Positions 19,468 to 32,956 of a stretch of 64,000 nucleotides of DNA are shown here, piece after piece. The position numbers and the translations under genes were made by a program. The notes beneath the pieces are model-generated. The model saw nothing but the letters and a program-made list of their open reading frames with translations. It was not told the DNA's origin and did not search any database. Each line of letters begins with the position of its first letter. Within the stretch, counting starts at the first letter, position 1. This stretch comes from Rhodoferax sp. OV413. GTDB taxonomy: Bacteria > Pseudomonadota > Gammaproteobacteria > Burkholderiales > Burkholderiaceae_C. The stretch lies in the NCBI RefSeq assembly GCF_900104385.1, contig NZ_FNJA01000006.1, positions 248,001 to 312,000 on the forward strand, in the 5' to 3' direction.

Positions 19468-20658
19468 TTAGAAATCCACCAGGCTCAAGCCCACGCTCAA
19501 CACGGTGCGCCGGTGGTTGTAGTCGATCAGGCTGTCGCCGTAGCCGCTGAACAGCTGGGTGTGCAGGCGCAGGCCGCTCTTGCGGCCGTCGCCGTCCAGC
19601 GATTTCAGCCATTCCAGCCGTACCGAACCACGGTTGTTGCTGCGCAGCGAATGGCGCACCGTGGTGACCAGGGTGTTGTCCTTGTTGACGTTCCAGGCGG
19701 CCAGCAGCTCGCCGCGGCCGATGAAGTCGCTGATGTCGGGGTTGTCGTCGTTGCCGTTGCTCTCGGGCAGGCGTTTCCAGACGCGCGCCTGCAGCTGCCA
19801 GCGGTCGCCTAGCTCCAGCCCGGCCATGCCGTAGACGCGGTTCCAGCTGCGCGACAGCGGCAGGCTTTGGCCGTTCGACTGGTGCACCAGGCCGGCGCCG
19901 CTGTAGCGCAGCTTCCAGCCGCCGGGCAGGGCCACGGTGCTGGGGTAGACGTAGACCAGCTCGGGCTCGTGGTCGGTGCTGCGGAACGGCCGCGACAGCG
20001 AGGGCGTGAACAGCTGCCAATACGACTGCTGGGTGTAGCCAAACCACAGCGAATCGCTGAGGCCGCTGGCGCGGTCGGTCAGCATGCCCTGGGCGATCTT
20101 GGTCCGCACCGACACCTGGATGCGGTTTTCCACCCGCTTGTAGGCGGTGGCCGAGGTGGCTGTGTGGCCGGCGCTGGGCGAGCTGGGTTGTTCGTTGACG
20201 TTGTCGGCGGTCACCACCGACAGGCTGATCGGGCGGTAGCCGCGGATGTTGAAGGTGCCGCAGTCGCTGCCGGTTTCCAACTCCCAGAAGCGCGAGAACT
20301 CGGAATAGCGCGTGTCCTTGCAGCCCTGGTCGGCGGCAATCGCCAGCGCCACGGCCACCGGCTGGGGCGGAATCTCGGGCAGGGCGGCGCTGGCGGTGGC
20401 CAGTACCGGCACGGCCGGCGGCGGGGGCGCGCTCTGCTGCTGGGCCAGCTCGTCGAAGCAGGCGAGTCGGGCTTCGCGGTCGTTCACCAGCCGCGCGCAG
20501 GACAGCCAGGGCACGGCGCCGGCCGCGCTGCCGGTGGCCGCCGGCGTGGCGGGCGCCACGATGGTGCTGGAGGTGATGGGCGCCGACTGCGCCTGCGCGC
20601 CGCCGCCCATGGCCGCCAGCAGCAGGCCCAGCGTGAAACTGCCGGCTGCCGGCTTCAT
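19468..20658 (-). CDS. pldA: Outer membrane phospholipase A (OMPLA)
   Basis: A 396-residue exported protein. The OMPLA active-site stretch HQSNGQSLPLSRSWNRVY gives the His and Ser of the catalytic dyad and the supporting Asn. The C-terminal two thirds form the 12-stranded barrel ending in a final aromatic (VDF). The first 110 residues, after the signal peptide, hold a Ser/Pro/Ala-rich spacer plus a CARLVNDREARLACFDELA segment common in beta-proteobacterial homologues. The enzyme hydrolyses outer-leaflet phospholipids when membrane asymmetry is lost. The ATG overlaps the stop of the preceding small gene (ATGA). Confidence 0.92.
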   Translation of the reverse strand: MKPAAGSFTLGLLLAAMGGGAQAQSAPITSSTIVAPATPAATGSAAGAVPWLSCARLVNDREARLACFDELAQQQSAPPPPAVPVLATASAALPEIPPQPVAVALAIAADQGCKDTRYSEFSRFWELETGSDCGTFNIRGYRPISLSVVTADNVNEQPSSPSAGHTATSATAYKRVENRIQVSVRTKIAQGMLTDRASGLSDSLWFGYTQQSYWQLFTPSLSRPFRSTDHEPELVYVYPSTVALPGGWKLRYSGAGLVHQSNGQSLPLSRSWNRVYGMAGLELGDRWQLQARVWKRLPESNGNDDNPDISDFIGRGELLAAWNVNKDNTLVTTVRHSLRSNNRGSVRLEWLKSLDGDGRKSGLRLHTQLFSGYGDSLIDYNHRRTVLSVGLSLVDF

Positions 20659-25140: not shown

Positions 25141-27402
25141 TCAGGCTTTGGCACCCGCGGGCGGCTGGCGCAGCTGGGCCAGGGCCGATGCCTGCTGCAG
25201 CTCGCGCGCCATGGATGTGGCCAGGGTTAGCCGGCGCAGCAGCCAGGGAGTCAGGTCGTCGGCCAGTAGCGGGTCGGGTTTGGGCAGAAACGGTTGGCCG
25301 ACGATGGTGGGGGCATCGGCGGGCGCCGGTGTGTCCTTGGGCGCGGCCGTGGCCGCCAGCTCCTGGGCGATTTGCCGCGCCGCCTCTTGCAGCGCCGGCG
25401 TGGCCACCGCCATGTCCAGCTGGGCGCGGCGTAGCAGCAGCAGCGACTTCACCGCGGTTAGCTGGGCCAGCAGCTGGTAGCTGCGCGCCTGCACCGCCTC
25501 CAGCGGCGCCAGCGCCGGCCGCACCTCGCTGGGCTCGGCCAGGCTGCGCTGGGTGGCCAGGGTCAGGGCCGACAGGCTGTCGTAGGCCTCGCGGCGCGCC
25601 AGCCGCCAGGGCAAATCCGATGTCTGCGCGGGCTCGCCCAGCGCCAGCGCCAGCTTGGCGTGCTGCAGCTGGGCCTGTTGGCTGCGCCGCACCAGGCCCG
25701 GCAGCTGGCTGCGTTCCCAGGCCGGCAGCACATAGCTGAACAGCCAGGCCAGGGCCGCGCCCAGCAAGGTGTCGGCCAGCCGCTCGCCCACCGCAAAGGT
25801 GGGGGCCGCGCCCACCAGCAGGATGTGCGCTTGCAGCAGCCCGGCCAGGGTGGCGAAGATGGTGGTGTACAGGTAGCGGCGCAGCGCAAACGCATGGGCC
25901 AGCCCCATGCCCAGCGCAATCACCAGGAACAGCGTGCGCGCCCCGGGGTGGGTGGCCAGCAGCGCCATCACCAGCAGGCAGCCCAGCACCGTGCCGGCCA
26001 CCCGCGCGTCGCGCCGCTGCAGGGTCTGCGCCAGATTGCCGCGCATCACCACCACGATGGTGGTCAATATCCAGTACTTGTGCGCCGCCCACGGCAGGTG
26101 CAGCGACACGATGTAGCCCACGCCCACCGCCAGCGTGGCGCGCAGCGCGTAGCGCAGGGTGGGGGCGCGCCAGGTCAGCTGGCCCAGCAGCGGCGCAATC
26201 GCCCAGCGTGTGGGGCTGACGAACAGCTGCCACTGGGTGCGCACCGCCGCCAGCTCGGGCGCCGCATCGCCGCGCGCCAGGGCGGCCAGGTGCATGGCCT
26301 CGTCGTTGATGTGACCTATGCGGTCGGCCATGTTGTGCAGCAGCGCCATCGCGTCCGGCGTGCCGGTGGTCAGCGGGCCGGGCACCAGCATGGCCGGGTC
26401 GGGCCGCGGCGGCAGCACACCGGCCAGCGCGGTGCGCAGGTCGGCAATCGGCGCAATCGCCTGCATGCTGCGGCCCAGCAGCATCGACAGGCTGAGCGCC
26501 TCCAGCTGCTGGGCGGTGGTGTTCAGCACCTGCTGCAGCGCCGGCAGGGTGGCCGTGCTGCCCTCATGCTTGAGCAAGGTGTCCAGATCCAGGTCGCAGG
26601 CCAGCTGGTGGTCGCGCGCCTCCAGCAGGCCCAGCAGCATGGCCGCCAGCCGGGTGCGGGCTGGCGTGGTGGGCGATTCGAGCACCACGTCGCGGGTGTT
26701 CTGCAGGTGGTCGGCCAGCGTGGCCTGTTGCTCCAGCATGCGGGCCAACAGAGATTGCGGATCGGCGTTGGGCGCAAAGCGCTGCGCCTGGGTGCGCAGA
26801 ATCTGCGCAAAGCTGTGCAGGCACTCGGCCAGCAGCTGGGTACGGAAGCGGGTGTTCAGCCAGTGGGTGGTCAGCACGCCCCACACCAGGTACAGCGCCG
26901 CCCCCAGCGCAAACCAGCCCCCGTGTTCCAGGATCTGCTCCAGCGCACCCACCGGCGGCGCGGCCATGGAAAACAGCATCGAGAACAGCAGCGAAAACGT
27001 CAACGGCCCGCCGCGCTTGCCCCAGGCCATCAGCATCACCGCCAAGAAGGTGCCGGCCACCAGCACCACGCCCAGCAGCAACACGTCTTCGCGCACTAGC
27101 TGTACCAGCATGAACAGCGGCGTGCCCAGCAGCGGCGCCGGCAGCATCTGCATGATCTTGCGGCGCCGCGGCGCCGGCACGTCCGGCAGGCTGGTAACCA
27201 TCACCCCCACCGCCGCACTCGACGCCCCGGCCAGCCCGGCCGATTCAAAGATCAGCAACATGATCACCACCAGCCCCAAGGTCACGCTCAGACCGTTGGT
27301 CACGTAGTGGCTGAGGGCGATGCGCAAGAAGCGGTCGCCGCGGGCGAATAGGCGGTCGGCGAGGGTGGGCTTGGCGGGGGCTCGGGGGCGTGCTGGGGGC
27401 AT
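25141..27402 (-). CDS. FUSC family inner membrane protein (YccS/aromatic acid exporter-like)
   Basis: A 753-residue protein with two blocks of membrane helices (about residues 30-175 and 415-535), each followed by a long soluble helical region: the duplicated layout of FUSC/YccS/AaeB proteins. The second block holds HKYWILTTIVVVMRGNLAQT and QRRDARVAGTVLGC, the family's most conserved part. Members export aromatic acids or act in envelope stress; the substrate here is unknown. The ATG at 27402 is taken as start; an in-frame TTG at 27444 would add 14 residues, and neither has a clear ribosome binding site. Confidence 0.85.
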   Translation of the reverse strand: MPPARPRAPAKPTLADRLFARGDRFLRIALSHYVTNGLSVTLGLVVIMLLIFESAGLAGASSAAVGVMVTSLPDVPAPRRRKIMQMLPAPLLGTPLFMLVQLVREDVLLLGVVLVAGTFLAVMLMAWGKRGGPLTFSLLFSMLFSMAAPPVGALEQILEHGGWFALGAALYLVWGVLTTHWLNTRFRTQLLAECLHSFAQILRTQAQRFAPNADPQSLLARMLEQQATLADHLQNTRDVVLESPTTPARTRLAAMLLGLLEARDHQLACDLDLDTLLKHEGSTATLPALQQVLNTTAQQLEALSLSMLLGRSMQAIAPIADLRTALAGVLPPRPDPAMLVPGPLTTGTPDAMALLHNMADRIGHINDEAMHLAALARGDAAPELAAVRTQWQLFVSPTRWAIAPLLGQLTWRAPTLRYALRATLAVGVGYIVSLHLPWAAHKYWILTTIVVVMRGNLAQTLQRRDARVAGTVLGCLLVMALLATHPGARTLFLVIALGMGLAHAFALRRYLYTTIFATLAGLLQAHILLVGAAPTFAVGERLADTLLGAALAWLFSYVLPAWERSQLPGLVRRSQQAQLQHAKLALALGEPAQTSDLPWRLARREAYDSLSALTLATQRSLAEPSEVRPALAPLEAVQARSYQLLAQLTAVKSLLLLRRAQLDMAVATPALQEAARQIAQELAATAAPKDTPAPADAPTIVGQPFLPKPDPLLADDLTPWLLRRLTLATSMARELQQASALAQLRQPPAGAKA

Positions 27403-27679
27403 GCGGGGCAATTTAGCAGAGTTGGTTTTAGTCTTAGCCGTCAAGTTCTACGGCTGGCGTGCTTCATACATATGGGGGACTAACGCGGTCGGTGCGAGTC
27501 ATTTTTGCTGCTTTGCCATGCATCATGCGGCGGACGTTGCAATTAGAAACACTTGGGGCTAATGGCGTGATAGCTGCATTGATTCCGGCGCTGAGTTCCT
27601 GTGCGTCGCGGATGCCCTTTGAGAGCGGTGGTTAGTCGGAAGTTCGACTATTAAATTTAACAAGAAGGCGGACGTACTT
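27403..27679. other. Left flank of the AT-rich island, no gene seen
   Basis: GC content drops sharply from about 27420 rightward. No ORF with sensible codon use is visible. An AAGAAGGCGG ribosome binding site for the next gene sits at its right end. The promoter of the two-gene island should be here; no convincing -35/-10 pair or direct repeat could be fixed by eye. Confidence 0.4.
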
Positions 27680-28096
27680 ATGGTAGTTTTAGGTGTAATT
27701 TTAAAGAGCAATATTGCGCGACTCGTTGCTCTGTCTGGAACTAGAAATCAACACCTTGCGGTTCGGAGCAAGGTAAATAAACTCGAAATTCCTAAAAATC
27801 CGACGCGTGATGATGTCGAGTCTTTTGTGCAGGCTTTTAAGTCGTTCTGCGCCGTTAACGTCATTGACTGCATCGTAGTAAATCGTCGCGCGAGTGCCGG
27901 TCAAGGGGCCGGTAGTGCATCAACATTTTTAACCGAAGGTGTATTGCTTGCGGCCTCGCCGTGTACCGTTGAGTTTGTCCATCCCGCAACAATTAAAGCC
28001 ACGGATAGAAAACAAGGTGGACTTAAGACCTGTCGGCCGGAAACTGTTGATCTTGGACTTGCCTACGACTTAGCCTTCGAACGTCTTCCTGCATAA
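27680..28096 (+). CDS. DUF3010-like protein
   Basis: A 138-residue protein matching the DUF3010 pattern: an N-terminal strand GVILKSNIARLVALSG, a central IVVNRRASAGQGAGSASTFL resembling the family's RxRPTKGKFAGGAV box, and a terminal YDLAFERL helix. The usual glutamate in the first strand (GIELKG in relatives as I remember them) is Ile here. Function of the family is unknown. GC is near 48%, far below the roughly 65% of neighbours. The stop lies two bases before the kinase gene, so the pair is one operon. Confidence 0.72.
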   Translation: MVVLGVILKSNIARLVALSGTRNQHLAVRSKVNKLEIPKNPTRDDVESFVQAFKSFCAVNVIDCIVVNRRASAGQGAGSASTFLTEGVLLAASPCTVEFVHPATIKATDRKQGGLKTCRPETVDLGLAYDLAFERLPA

Positions 28097-28098
28097 CT

Positions 28099-29211
28099 AT
28101 GGCGATTGATATTTCTGCGCTGCCCGCAGAGGCACATGAAGCGTTGAAAAGATTTCCGGAGTTTGAACCACACCAGTTCAATGACTCAGGTGCGAATGGG
28201 TACGTATTGTTGGGAAGGCATAACGTACTGCAACGGGACGTTGCACTGAAGATTTATTTCCATGCCCCGAATGAGATGGAGCAAGAGCCTGCCCTCATTG
28301 CCGCAATTAATCATGAAAACGTTATGAAGGTCCTCGACGCGAGGAACTTAATGCATGGCTGCTCATTTTTTATGACACCGTATGCAAATTATGGAGACCT
28401 GAGTTCATATATCCAAGAGCGTCCAATTCCCATTCGATTAGCGCTCCGACTCCTGCGACAACTGCTCTCCGGCCTTACGGCACTTCATTCAGAGCCTCTA
28501 CGGCTTGTTCACAGAGACATTAAGCCGCAAAACCTTTTGATCCACGATGACACCTTATTAATTGCAGATTTCGGCTCGGTGCGTCGAATGGCCGCAGGTG
28601 CTAATGTCGTACCGGCATCAAAACATAGTGTCCTCTATAGGCCGCCAGAAGCATTTGGTGACCAAGGACGTTTTAACTTTTCATCAGACTGCTATCAAGC
28701 AGGTCTTATTGGGTACTTACTATTTGGCGGACAGTTGAGTGAGCTCCTTACAGAGCACCTCAAAACTGCACAGATTAAGAAGCTTGAGGGGCTACGGTAC
28801 GACAATGTTTCTTATGCTGATGAGTGCCTGTTCGTGGATGATTGCTTACGTGACCGGATTCAAAGAGGTATGTTGTTAGATTGGACGAAGATCCCTGCAT
28901 ACGTGCCGCGCAAGCTTGTCAGGTCTTTGCGGCGAGCAACCTCGATTGACGGAAGATACCGAGACGTCAGCGAGTTCTTGGCGGAGTTAGCCGCTGTGGG
29001 ACCGTTGCCGGACTGGATAGTAGAAGGACCGCAGGCATGGACGCTTAGAGACTGGAAGAAGCAAGACTATTGCCTAGTTGCAGAGAATGGGAACGTGATC
29101 GTTAAGAAGAGTCGCTCGGGGGCAGCAAAGTTCTCCACCGACCATGCGTTATCCGGAGGCAGTTGGAGTGATGTCTTTAAACGTGTGGCAGAAAAGCTTG
29201 GTTTGCCATAA
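28099..29211 (+). CDS. Hanks-type Ser/Thr protein kinase with C-terminal extension
   Basis: A 370-residue cytosolic kinase. Catalytic elements are intact: VALKIY with Lys51, acidic helix C (EQEPALI), HRDIKPQNLL (His138-Asp140, Lys142, Asn145), ADFGS (Asp157-Gly159), RPPE (181-184, replacing APE) and SSDCYQAG (Asp197). The glycine loop is weak (SGANGYV). No membrane helix or PASTA repeats follow; instead a ~70-residue tail begins near PDWIVEGPQAWTLRDWKKQD. It is coupled to the DUF3010-like gene in an AT-rich island with unlike codon use, which suggests transfer. The target is unknown. A signalling or defence role is inference. Confidence 0.88.
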   Translation: MAIDISALPAEAHEALKRFPEFEPHQFNDSGANGYVLLGRHNVLQRDVALKIYFHAPNEMEQEPALIAAINHENVMKVLDARNLMHGCSFFMTPYANYGDLSSYIQERPIPIRLALRLLRQLLSGLTALHSEPLRLVHRDIKPQNLLIHDDTLLIADFGSVRRMAAGANVVPASKHSVLYRPPEAFGDQGRFNFSSDCYQAGLIGYLLFGGQLSELLTEHLKTAQIKKLEGLRYDNVSYADECLFVDDCLRDRIQRGMLLDWTKIPAYVPRKLVRSLRRATSIDGRYRDVSEFLAELAAVGPLPDWIVEGPQAWTLRDWKKQDYCLVAENGNVIVKKSRSGAAKFSTDHALSGGSWSDVFKRVAEKLGLP

Positions 29212-29363
29212 GTTAAATATCACGACATTGGTTTATTTAGTGTGGCAACGTGCATAGGTGATTGACGAGGTGCCGTCCGGCGGGCCGGCCACGCACAGCA
29301 ACGGGAACACAACCACGGACCCCAAGCGGGACCATGCGCTTTACGCCCAAGGCATGACGCTAC

Positions 29364-29459: not shown

Positions 29460-30026
29460 TCAAGGGCTTTCTCCACGCCCCAACTTTGCCAGCAGCTCTG
29501 CCATGCGCTTCTGCCGGGTTTCCGGCCGCTTGGCGCTGTGCAGCCGGTGGTAAATGGTGAACTGGCTCTGGCGTTTGAGCGTGGCGTAGAAAGCGTGGGC
29601 AGCGGGGTCTTGTTGCAGCGCCGCCAAAAAATCTTCGGGCATCACCATGGTGGCGCTGCCGGCGTAGGCTGTGGCCCAGCGCCCATCGCTGCGCGCGGCC
29701 TCTACATGCGCCAGACCAGCGGCTTGCATGCGCCCTTGCTCTATCAGCCGCTCGGCATGCTGCACGTTTTTCTGCGACCAGTTGGAGCGCGCGCGGCGTG
29801 GCGTCAGGCGTTGCAGAAACGAGGTGTCGTCCAGGGCGTTGCGCAGCCCGTCGATCCAGCCCCATGTGATGGCGGCCACCACGCAATCGTCCCAGGTGAC
29901 GGAGGGCTGGCCGGTGGCCTTTTTGAAGATGCGCACCCACAGCTCAGTCTCGCTGGCGTGGTTCACCTGCAGCCAGGCGTGGAGCTGCTCGGGCGTTTTA
30001 AAGCTGTGGTGTGCTGGTTTGCTCAT
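29460..30026 (-). CDS. YdeI/OmpD-associated family protein
   Basis: A 188-residue soluble protein. ELWVRIFKKATGQPSVTWDD, ALDDTSFLQRLTPRRARSNWS and the C-terminal RQKRMAELLAKLGRGE are the hallmarks of the YdeI/bacteriocin-protection family. Homologues are linked to survival under antimicrobial or salt stress, but the biochemistry is unknown. The ATG is followed upstream by repeat copy G. It lies right of the kinase island and is transcribed toward it. Confidence 0.87.
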   Translation of the reverse strand: MSKPAHHSFKTPEQLHAWLQVNHASETELWVRIFKKATGQPSVTWDDCVVAAITWGWIDGLRNALDDTSFLQRLTPRRARSNWSQKNVQHAERLIEQGRMQAAGLAHVEAARSDGRWATAYAGSATMVMPEDFLAALQQDPAAHAFYATLKRQSQFTIYHRLHSAKRPETRQKRMAELLAKLGRGESP

Positions 30027-31601: not shown

Positions 31602-31799
31602 CGTTGCTCCTTGTTGGTTGAGAGGGTCAGGGCGGTATTGTGGTCAGAACGCGTGGCAAAGGGCGTTGTGGGGGATTTGGTGTGGGCGCGCAAGGTGCGC
31701 ACTGCGAGGCTGGGGTGGCCCCTGTTTGCATGCCCGGGGCATGCGTCTTCCACTAACATCCTTATTCCCTAATCGGCCCAATGCAGAAAGGATTTCACC

Positions 31800-31898
31800 A
31801 TGGTGTTTCACAAGGCAGGTGCCTCGCTTCTGCACGAAGTGGAAGGCCATCAGCGGCTGTTCATCCATGCCGCGACTGCCGCGGAGGTGCTGCCATGA
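31800..31898 (+). CDS. Small ORF coupled to the YhcG-like nuclease gene
   Basis: A 32-codon ORF beginning MVFHKAGASLLHEVEGHQRL. A strong ribosome binding site (AGAAAGGA) lies 7-15 bases before its ATG, and its stop overlaps the nuclease ATG as ATGA. No family is recognised. It may be a leader peptide that couples translation, a small partner protein, or the end of a decayed gene; the ribosome binding site and overlap argue that it is translated. Confidence 0.45.
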   Translation: MVFHKAGASLLHEVEGHQRLFIHAATAAEVLP

Positions 31899-32956
31899 GT
31901 GAGGTGCTTCCTGCAGCTGCGGACGGCTTGCACGCGGAACTGCGTGCGCTCATTGCCAGCAGCCGACAGCGCCTGGCCGGTGCAGTCAATGCCGAACTGA
32001 CGCGCTTGTATTGGGCAGTGGGGCAGCGGCTGCGGACCGAGGTGTTGGGCGGCGCGGACCGTGCCAAGTACGGTGACCAGTTGATCAACCGTGTGGGGGA
32101 TCAGTTGGCACAGGAGTTTGGCCGTGGATTTGAAGCCAAAAACCTGCGCCGCATGGTGCAGTTTGCCCAGACTTTTCCTCAGCCCGAGATTGTCGCGACG
32201 CTGTCGCGACAATTGAGCTGGAGCCATTTTGTGAACCTGCTGCCGCTCAAAACCGAGCCCGCCCGCCAGTTTTACGCCAGCCAAGCTGCCACTAACACCT
32301 GGAGCGTGCGAGAGCTGCGCCACCAGATCGAACGCAAAGCCTACGAGCGCGCGGAGCTTGCCGCATTGCAAGTCCCTCCATCCACTCCGACTGAGCCTGC
32401 TTTTGCCTCGCAGACCAACCCCGCCCTCGTCTTCAAAGACCCGTATTTCCTAGACTTCCTGGGCCTGCGCCAGGGCCACGACGAGGCCGATTTGGAAGAC
32501 GCCATCTTGCGCCAGCTAGAGGCCTTTATTCTGGAGCTGGGCCGGGGCTTTGCGTTTGTGGAACGGCAAAAGCGCATGGTGATCGATGGCGAAGACTTTT
32601 ACCTGGACCTGCTGTTCTACCACCGCCGCCTGCGCCGGCTGGTGGCGATTGAGCTGAAGCTGGGCCGCTTTAAAGCCGCCCATAAAGGCCAGATGGAGCT
32701 GTATTTGAAATGGCTGGACAAGCATGAACGCGAGCCAGGCGAAGAGGCGCCCATCGGCCTCATCCTGTGCGCCGAATCCAGCCGCGAGCAAGTGGAGCTG
32801 CTGCAAATGCACAAAGACGGCATCACCGTGGCCGAATACTGGACCGAACTACCACCCAAGGCCGAGCTGGAGCAGCACCTGCACCAGGCTCTGCTGGAAG
32901 CGCGCGAGCGGCTGGCGCGGCGCGGGGTGTTGATGGAGGGGGGCGAGGATGCGTGA
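31895..32956 (+). CDS. YhcG/DUF1016 family PD-(D/E)xK nuclease
   Basis: A 353-residue protein. The N-terminal DUF1016 helical domain has LYWAVGQRLRTEVL, GFEAKNLRRMVQFAQTFP and SWSHFVNLLPLK. The C-terminal nuclease domain has PYFLDFLGL, DGEDFYLDLLFYHRRL (catalytic Asp) and VAIELKLGRF (ExK). Members are found in many genomes next to restriction or defence genes and have been linked to DNA repair or recombination; the exact role is unsettled. Here it stands alone apart from the small coupled ORF. The longer in-frame start at 31781 is rejected for lack of family residues. Confidence 0.88.
   Translation: MSEVLPAAADGLHAELRALIASSRQRLAGAVNAELTRLYWAVGQRLRTEVLGGADRAKYGDQLINRVGDQLAQEFGRGFEAKNLRRMVQFAQTFPQPEIVATLSRQLSWSHFVNLLPLKTEPARQFYASQAATNTWSVRELRHQIERKAYERAELAALQVPPSTPTEPAFASQTNPALVFKDPYFLDFLGLRQGHDEADLEDAILRQLEAFILELGRGFAFVERQKRMVIDGEDFYLDLLFYHRRLRRLVAIELKLGRFKAAHKGQMELYLKWLDKHEREPGEEAPIGLILCAESSREQVELLQMHKDGITVAEYWTELPPKAELEQHLHQALLEARERLARRGVLMEGGEDA

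Follow-up and report, generated by a model that had tools for sequence, protein, structure and literature searches.

A conserved DUF3010-kinase gene pair in Rhodoferax as a candidate mobile defence module

The stretch of DNA analysed here, 64,000 nucleotides of Rhodoferax sp. OV413 (contig NZ_FNJA01000006.1, positions 248,001 to 312,000; hereafter the window), contains two tandem genes on the forward strand, separated by a gap of two bases, which encode a small protein of the DUF3010 family and a soluble serine/threonine (Ser/Thr) kinase of the Hanks type. The pair and its parts occupy the following positions, counted from the first letter of the window:

27680..28096, forward strand: DUF3010 protein gene, 138 residues, ATG start; PF11215 E 9.7e-27; RuvC-like fold model; Ile7
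28099..29211, forward strand: soluble Hanks-type Ser/Thr kinase gene, 370 residues, ATG start; PF00069 E 1.6e-24; catalytic residues complete
29011..29199, forward strand: C-terminal domain of the kinase, codons 305-367; four strands and a helix in the model; no Pfam match
27613..29344, no strand assigned: approximate accessory segment; similarity to the congener G039 stops at 27612 and similarity to the congener G243 restarts at 29345

The small protein matches PF11215 at 94.4 bits (cut-off 25) over profile positions 1-134 of 137 and is thus a DUF3010 member, and the kinase matches PF00069 at 87.2 bits (cut-off 31.7). At 48.7% guanine-cytosine (GC) content against 64.1% for the whole window, the pair stands apart from its surroundings; specifically, the lowest GC among 1188 non-overlapping stretches as long as the pair, taken in 50-base steps, is 55.2%. 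The codons TTA and ATA together make up 4 of 139 codons in the DUF3010 gene and 10 of 371 in the kinase gene, against 2/768, 1/189, 0/229, 0/392 and 0/707 in five nearby genes. The initial annotation, made from the sequence without database searches, had described two low-GC genes two bases apart, rich in rare codons and encoding a DUF3010-like protein and a kinase, and this description is borne out. A tRNA search between positions 20000 and 37000 found none, a repeat search at the segment returned two pairs of short direct repeats and no inverted ones, and promoter-like sites there equal the shuffled mean in number.

The association of the two genes extends well beyond this genome. Eight distinct loci carry the module, namely the window; G088, a genome of the same family whose two proteins are 71.5% and 65.1% identical to those of the window; the C. 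necator plasmid pHG1, whose kinase is 52% identical; G1087 (locus L127), which belongs to another class; Rhizobium sp. BG6; and the three IMG/VR contigs L142, L143 and L144. R. grahamii BG7 (L136) shares both proteins with BG6 and is treated as a copy of it, and L137 is the same plasmid as pHG1. At all eight loci, the kinase gene is immediately preceded by a DUF3010 frame on the same strand, with a spacing between -8 (overlap) and +9 nucleotides. Adjacency, on which the initial annotation had staked its proposal of a module, therefore holds throughout.

In the loci examined, the pairing goes with one type of kinase. The control consisted of loci around kinases, 80 from genome contigs (the best 80 of 564 relatives) and 80 from viral contigs (the best 80 of 105). 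A DUF3010 profile match occurs in 3 of these 160 loci, which are exactly the three module loci, and in none of the 157 other-kinase controls. The genome-contig scan, dominated by generic kinase motifs, held no module member among its best 80 of 564, and the viral-contig scan with five kinases held three among its best 80 of 105, the same three being returned when the scan was repeated with eight kinases. In the kinase tree, which includes two long outgroup rows, all eight module kinases fall on one side of a 100/100 branch and nine other kinases on the opposite side. In a search of 299 phylum genomes, scores of 536-598 bits went to three module kinases, and the next best kinase reached 98. Since module kinases supplied the profiles, the bit-score gaps of this search and of the 160-locus search are in part built in. 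The same does not apply to L127, which scored 230 bits against a profile from three other module kinases, or to tblastn with the window kinase, which placed the three viral members at E 8e-117, 3e-42 and 7e-40 and the next locus at 2e-13. Neither the window DUF3010, nor the kinase C-terminus, nor a DUF3010 alignment of three rows found a match when scanned against viral contigs; two single-protein viral-contig scans matched their own contigs only, and in phage records both the window DUF3010 and the kinase C-terminus went unmatched.

The pair is also thinly spread. With the source genome counted each time, DUF3010 is present in 1 of 8 genus genomes, in 2 of 299 from the family and in 2 of 399 from the order, both positives being kinase-linked; a kinase inherited vertically throughout the family, the outcome that the initial annotation had set against its own proposal, does not fit these counts. 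The class sample gave 11 DUF3010 positives in 369 genomes, 10 of them of gammaproteobacterial type, and the phylum sample gave 26 in 299, comprising 22 of gammaproteobacterial type, three kinase-linked and one weak match under the cut-off. The kinase was found in 1 of 48 genomes of the class of G1087, this being G1087 itself, and in 0 of 250 genomes of the class of G1168 at E 1e-30, a zero that is not telling because the search had no positive control. Judged by this pattern of sequence matches, the pair is rare and mobile.

The kinase has a complete active site. Specifically, it carries K51, E63, H138-R139-D140, K142, N145, D157-F158-G159 and E184, all invariant across the eight homologues aligned, and thereby holds the lysine (K51), HRD aspartate (D140), asparagine (N145) and DFG aspartate (D157) that define a Hanks-type kinase. 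A strongly hydrophobic segment was found in neither protein, the highest 19-residue means being 1.7 for the DUF3010 protein and 1.1 for the kinase against 2.8 for the FUSC-type protein encoded nearby. The earlier description of a soluble kinase with all catalytic residues thus stands, but the protein is not a catalytic domain alone, as its structure model (predicted local distance difference test score, pLDDT, 85.1) shows the additional domain at residues 305-367.

None of the known systems tested fits the pair by membership. The top library score of the window kinase is to PHROG 2361 (114.5 bits over residues 28-300), a family of phage serine-threonine kinases, and PHROGs hold no DUF3010 match. 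The best PADLOC kinase match is mad6 (108.2 bits over profile positions 61-253 of 659); this likeness to MAD6 of MADS is a kinase match, and 77.3 bits against an NCBIfam cut-off of 460 places the window kinase outside that family, just as 22.1 bits against a cut-off of 990 places it outside PglW of BREX. The matches to PD-T4-6 (PADLOC 77.8 bits, profile positions 14-209 of 292, kinase residues 25-212) and Stk2 (PADLOC 30.1 bits, profile positions 204-264 of 500), scores for which PADLOC cut-offs are not displayed, cover the kinase core. Both systems, which we take to be single-gene defences, differ from the pair in that the DUF3010 partner and the C-terminal domain lie outside the match, and the likeness does not reach beyond a generic core.

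Two multi-gene systems were also compared. As reported in PMC11341870, KKP uses a Ser/Thr kinase carried in mobile elements as a defensive output and controls Pf prophages through phosphorylation of MvaU. It consists, however, of two kinases and a phosphatase, whereas the window pair combines a single kinase with a RuvC-fold partner, has no phosphatase, and is flanked by FUSC-type and OmdA-type genes, so that it does not belong to KKP. HipAD/DS-6, as described in PMC13092281, is likewise a two-gene defence of a kinase and a partner and requires the predicted catalytic kinase residue, but its kinase is related to HipA, not of the Hanks type, and its partner carries DUF3037 and DUF1829. A description of the DUF3010-kinase pairing was not found in the literature searched, nor in PADLOC 2023, NCBIfam, PHROGs or Pfam.

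The partner of the kinase was examined through its predicted fold and its residues. The structure model of the window DUF3010 protein (pLDDT 89.3) has RuvC as its best Foldseek match (E 2.3e-6, template modelling score 0.76) and thus a RuvC-like RNase H fold, with an identity of 13-17% in the top matches. The model agrees with the published placement of DUF3010 in cluster D.19 of the RNase H-like superfamily, similar to Holliday-junction resolvases (PMC3985635). KEOPS (Kae1-Bud32) was considered as an analogue and rejected, a KEOPS chain ranking only 30th among the fold matches at E 2.2e-3.

RuvC-type nucleases carry an acidic residue that closes the first strand. In contrast to the Holliday-junction resolvase RuvC, the window protein has no acid there, and a reading of it as an ordinary active nuclease was dropped on account of the lost acids. 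Position 7 is Ile in the window, Met in G088, Phe in L142 and pHG1, and Gln in Rhizobium. Asp or Glu occupies positions 7 and 12 in all 26 gammaproteobacterial-type DUF3010 sequences compared; three of the seven intact kinase-linked copies (L127, L143 and L144) retain both acids, and both are gone in the window, G088, L142 and Rhizobium copies. Besides its kinase and the loss of these acids, the window protein differs from the typical family in residue 75, which is Q in 7/7 intact kinase-linked copies against K or E in the 26 gammaproteobacterial-type ones. Q75 is not exclusive to the pair, as a lone R. leguminosarum fragment also has it; in a lone Roseobacter protein the residue is R75 and the acid is retained.

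The Roseobacter gene lies on the Roseobacter litoralis plasmid pROLI81 (L134:7965-8432), where a kinase is absent from 19 annotated features; it is near a relaxase and VirD1 and further from TniB/TniQ, and its product clusters with the Rhizobium partner in the tree. The R. leguminosarum plasmid pRlX5 (L135:8001-8264) holds a short DUF3010-like stretch with no full reading frame surviving in the list of open reading frames.

How often were the acids lost? In the kinase tree, Rhizobium groups with the acid-bearing copies (98/99); it does so with weaker support in the DUF3010 tree (80/98), and the loss therefore probably happened twice. The acid-less proteins of the window, G088 and L142 have remained constrained, with proportions of nonsynonymous differences (pN) of 0.18-0.26 against proportions of synonymous differences (pS) of 0.75-0.83; these values are reported in place of the nonsynonymous-to-synonymous rate ratio (dN/dS), which was dropped because synonymous sites were saturated. 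As the acids are missing from the window branch and, separately, from Rhizobium, and the window-branch proteins are constrained, cutting seems dispensable, and a binding, sensing or regulatory role seems likelier for the DUF3010 partner.

The copy on pHG1 adds a natural disruption. There, the DUF3010 frame (L082:8001-8417, C. necator H16) is interrupted at codon 61 by an in-frame TAA, the kinase gene next to it being whole, and neither pHG1 record's PLSDB table lists a gene at this frame. Compared with L142, pN is 0.10 and 0.09 on the two sides of the TAA, and these few amino-acid differences on both sides suggest a recent break. A broken DUF3010 gene next to a whole kinase argues against the partner being a strict antitoxin.

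These features bear directly on a toxin-antitoxin-like arrangement, in which either DUF3010 would be a RuvC-type nuclease toxin restrained by phosphorylation or the kinase would be the toxin and DUF3010 its antitoxin, with infection or loss of the element freeing the toxin. Such an arrangement would be in keeping with the tight two-gene layout with the small gene first, the locations on plasmid, prophage and hotspot, the acids retained in three copies, and the precedent of a kinase acting as toxin in KKP (PMC11341870). Yet acids that were probably lost twice in constrained proteins are at odds with a nuclease toxin of known RuvC chemistry in those branches, and the pHG1 locus is not what a strict antitoxin would be expected to permit unless its kinase is silent. 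Taken together, we regard this arrangement as rather unlikely.

The genomic setting suggests a link to defence. In the window, the pair lies in a slot between a FUSC-type and an OmdA-type gene, with a third gene of note further downstream:

25141..27444, reverse strand: FUSC-type membrane protein gene, left flank of the slot; PF12805, PF13515; kept in 6/7 congeners
29460..30026, reverse strand: OmdA/YdeI-type gene, right flank of the slot, likewise in the congener G243; PF13376 E 4.4e-20
31781..32956, forward strand: YhcG-type nuclease gene, 2.6 kb downstream of the pair; PF06250, PF17761; PADLOC PDC-S02 458 bits

Six of seven congeners match the FUSC-type gene substantially, at a protein identity of about 80-89%, and the seventh, an incomplete genome, matches it only over about 43 bases; the gene content that follows FUSC varies among congeners. 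In G243, the interval between FUSC and OmdA holds a gene of 39% GC (L304:932-2686) that matches the PADLOC dCTPase at E 2.9e-130, after which OmdA restarts at 91% DNA identity. In G1052 (L305:1599-7086), a NACHT-domain gene of 37% GC (Pfam E 5.9e-9) follows FUSC and is itself followed by AbiEi, AbiEii and Fic-type genes. G1054 has about 430 bases between FUSC and the next shared gene, and this interval contains YoeB-like frames in G1051 and G1054, identified by reading of frames only. The contig of G039 ends near the slot. As such, the slot between FUSC and OmdA looks like a defence hotspot.

Named defence genes accompany the pair elsewhere. In G088, McrC (PF10117 E 2.9e-102) lies directly downstream, followed by an AAA protein in the McrB position, a YgjP-type gene and HsdR. 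On pHG1, a conjugative megaplasmid, IetA/IetS lie 0.85 kb downstream, and an ISL3 transposase is annotated about 6 kb upstream. An MmeI-type restriction-modification gene (1140 bits) lies 0.4 kb downstream in L142, YhcG lies about 0.5 kb from the pair in G1087, and the L144 pair belongs to a P2-like prophage, in which it separates the capsid scaffold gene from the terminase gene. A reading frame of 575 residues without a Pfam match (L127:2130-3857) is also found close to YhcG and the pair in G1087, and a SIR2-like frame follows the portal gene of L144 (L144:10347-11246; 20.8 bits, short of the Pfam cut-off of 24.5, with no PADLOC match). The initial annotation had pointed to the YhcG-type gene of the window in arguing for a defence-like layout. 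This gene is present and a PADLOC defence candidate, but it lies at 2.6 kb rather than the 3 kb given, it may not belong with the pair, and it is the weak part of that argument; the proposal of an inserted cassette with a defence-like layout is supported at the genomic level, for which the slot and the neighbours elsewhere are the better evidence.

Several observations weigh against a defence role or against the coherence of the module. Under a uniform criterion (PADLOC E <= 1e-20, with the upstream neighbours of G088 and pHG1 excluded from the scan), 3 of 14 pair neighbours match (IetA, MmeI type and YhcG) against 2 of 20 in the gammaproteobacterial control, which consists of the 20 neighbours of ten DUF3010 genes among the matches listed. 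Both control matches are a DinG-type helicase, and McrC matches in Pfam only. This count alone is not a significant difference, and the defence argument therefore rests on the identity of the neighbours and on the slot. No defence gene was recognized at the threshold used among the two neighbours scanned in L143, nor among the two scanned in Rhizobium, which look metabolic. The NACHT protein of G1052 has no PADLOC match, and the position of the L144 pair differs from the published P2 hotspot, which PMC9122126 places between gpA and gpQ. In the DUF3010 tree, from which the R. leguminosarum fragment, pHG1 and a duplicate of L127 were excluded, the kinase-linked proteins do not form one clade and need three label changes; together with Roseobacter and one gammaproteobacterial-type row, they lie on one side of a 97/96 branch. 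The acids kept in L127, L143 and L144 would permit a nuclease role there, and the loci are few (n=8).

As a side observation on DUF3010 genes outside the module, a DinG-type helicase gene (PADLOC typeIV_DinG) adjoins DUF3010 in two related genomes (L097:5415-7325 and L098:5505-7421), and a DEAD/DEAH helicase is listed adjoining a DUF3010 gene in PMC10441182.

Could the pair then be a transferred signalling unit with a metabolic or stress role, unconnected to phages? The metabolic genes around the Rhizobium locus would suit this idea, as would the small number of loci, the weak uniform neighbour control and the fact that DUF3010 is an ordinary kinase-free gene elsewhere, with no module-type kinase found at the 14 gammaproteobacterial-type DUF3010 loci tested (about 5 kb on each side). 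The sporadic occurrence, the slot common to defence genes and the named defence neighbours in four loci speak against it, and we consider it unlikely. Alternatively, the pair might help to maintain prophages or plasmids, with the kinase phosphorylating a nucleoid or repressor protein and defence arising at most as a side effect. Three of the eight loci are IMG/VR contigs and one is a conjugative plasmid, and the control of Pf prophages by KKP through MvaU (PMC11341870) would offer a model for such a function. However, the window pair occupies a chromosomal slot, the G088 pair lies beside McrBC and HsdR, phage structural genes were not seen nearby, and the window pair has no adjoining phosphatase or second kinase; this alternative appears quite improbable.

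The available data is most compatible with a model in which the pair constitutes an undescribed, mobile two-gene module of defence or inter-element conflict, to which we assign a probability of roughly 0.7. Its computed basis comprises the strict pairing, the mobility, the defence-gene surroundings, the complete kinase active site, the RuvC-like model and the first-strand acid lost from the window branch. Within this module, the kinase may be the effector and DUF3010 the regulatory or sensing subunit, a division of labour that we hold only tentatively, at somewhat under even odds. Both estimates take the weak uniform neighbour control into account.

In such a module, the two proteins would bind each other, and the RuvC-fold partner would recognize a cue of infection, perhaps a phage protein or a nucleic acid of branched or unusual structure, instead of cutting DNA. 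It would then release or activate the kinase, which would phosphorylate host or phage targets so that growth or phage production stops; the pair would in this way halt phages. A more daring version, which we find doubtful as a whole, holds that DUF3010 is a RuvC-derived sensor that no longer cuts in two branches or more, that it binds DNA which is branched or undergoing recombination, or a phage protein responsible for such DNA, and that it turns on a Ser/Thr kinase to arrest the infected cell. In this version, a resolvase fold would have become the trigger of a phosphorylation-based immune pathway.

Kinase-based defences are known, but it is understood for few bacterial Hanks-type kinases how infection sets them off. 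If the proposed reading is true, the pair would present a compact sensor-kinase system with a fixed RuvC-fold partner, in which natural variants either keep or lack the catalytic acids. A branch of DUF3010, a family still labelled as of unknown function, would gain its first role.
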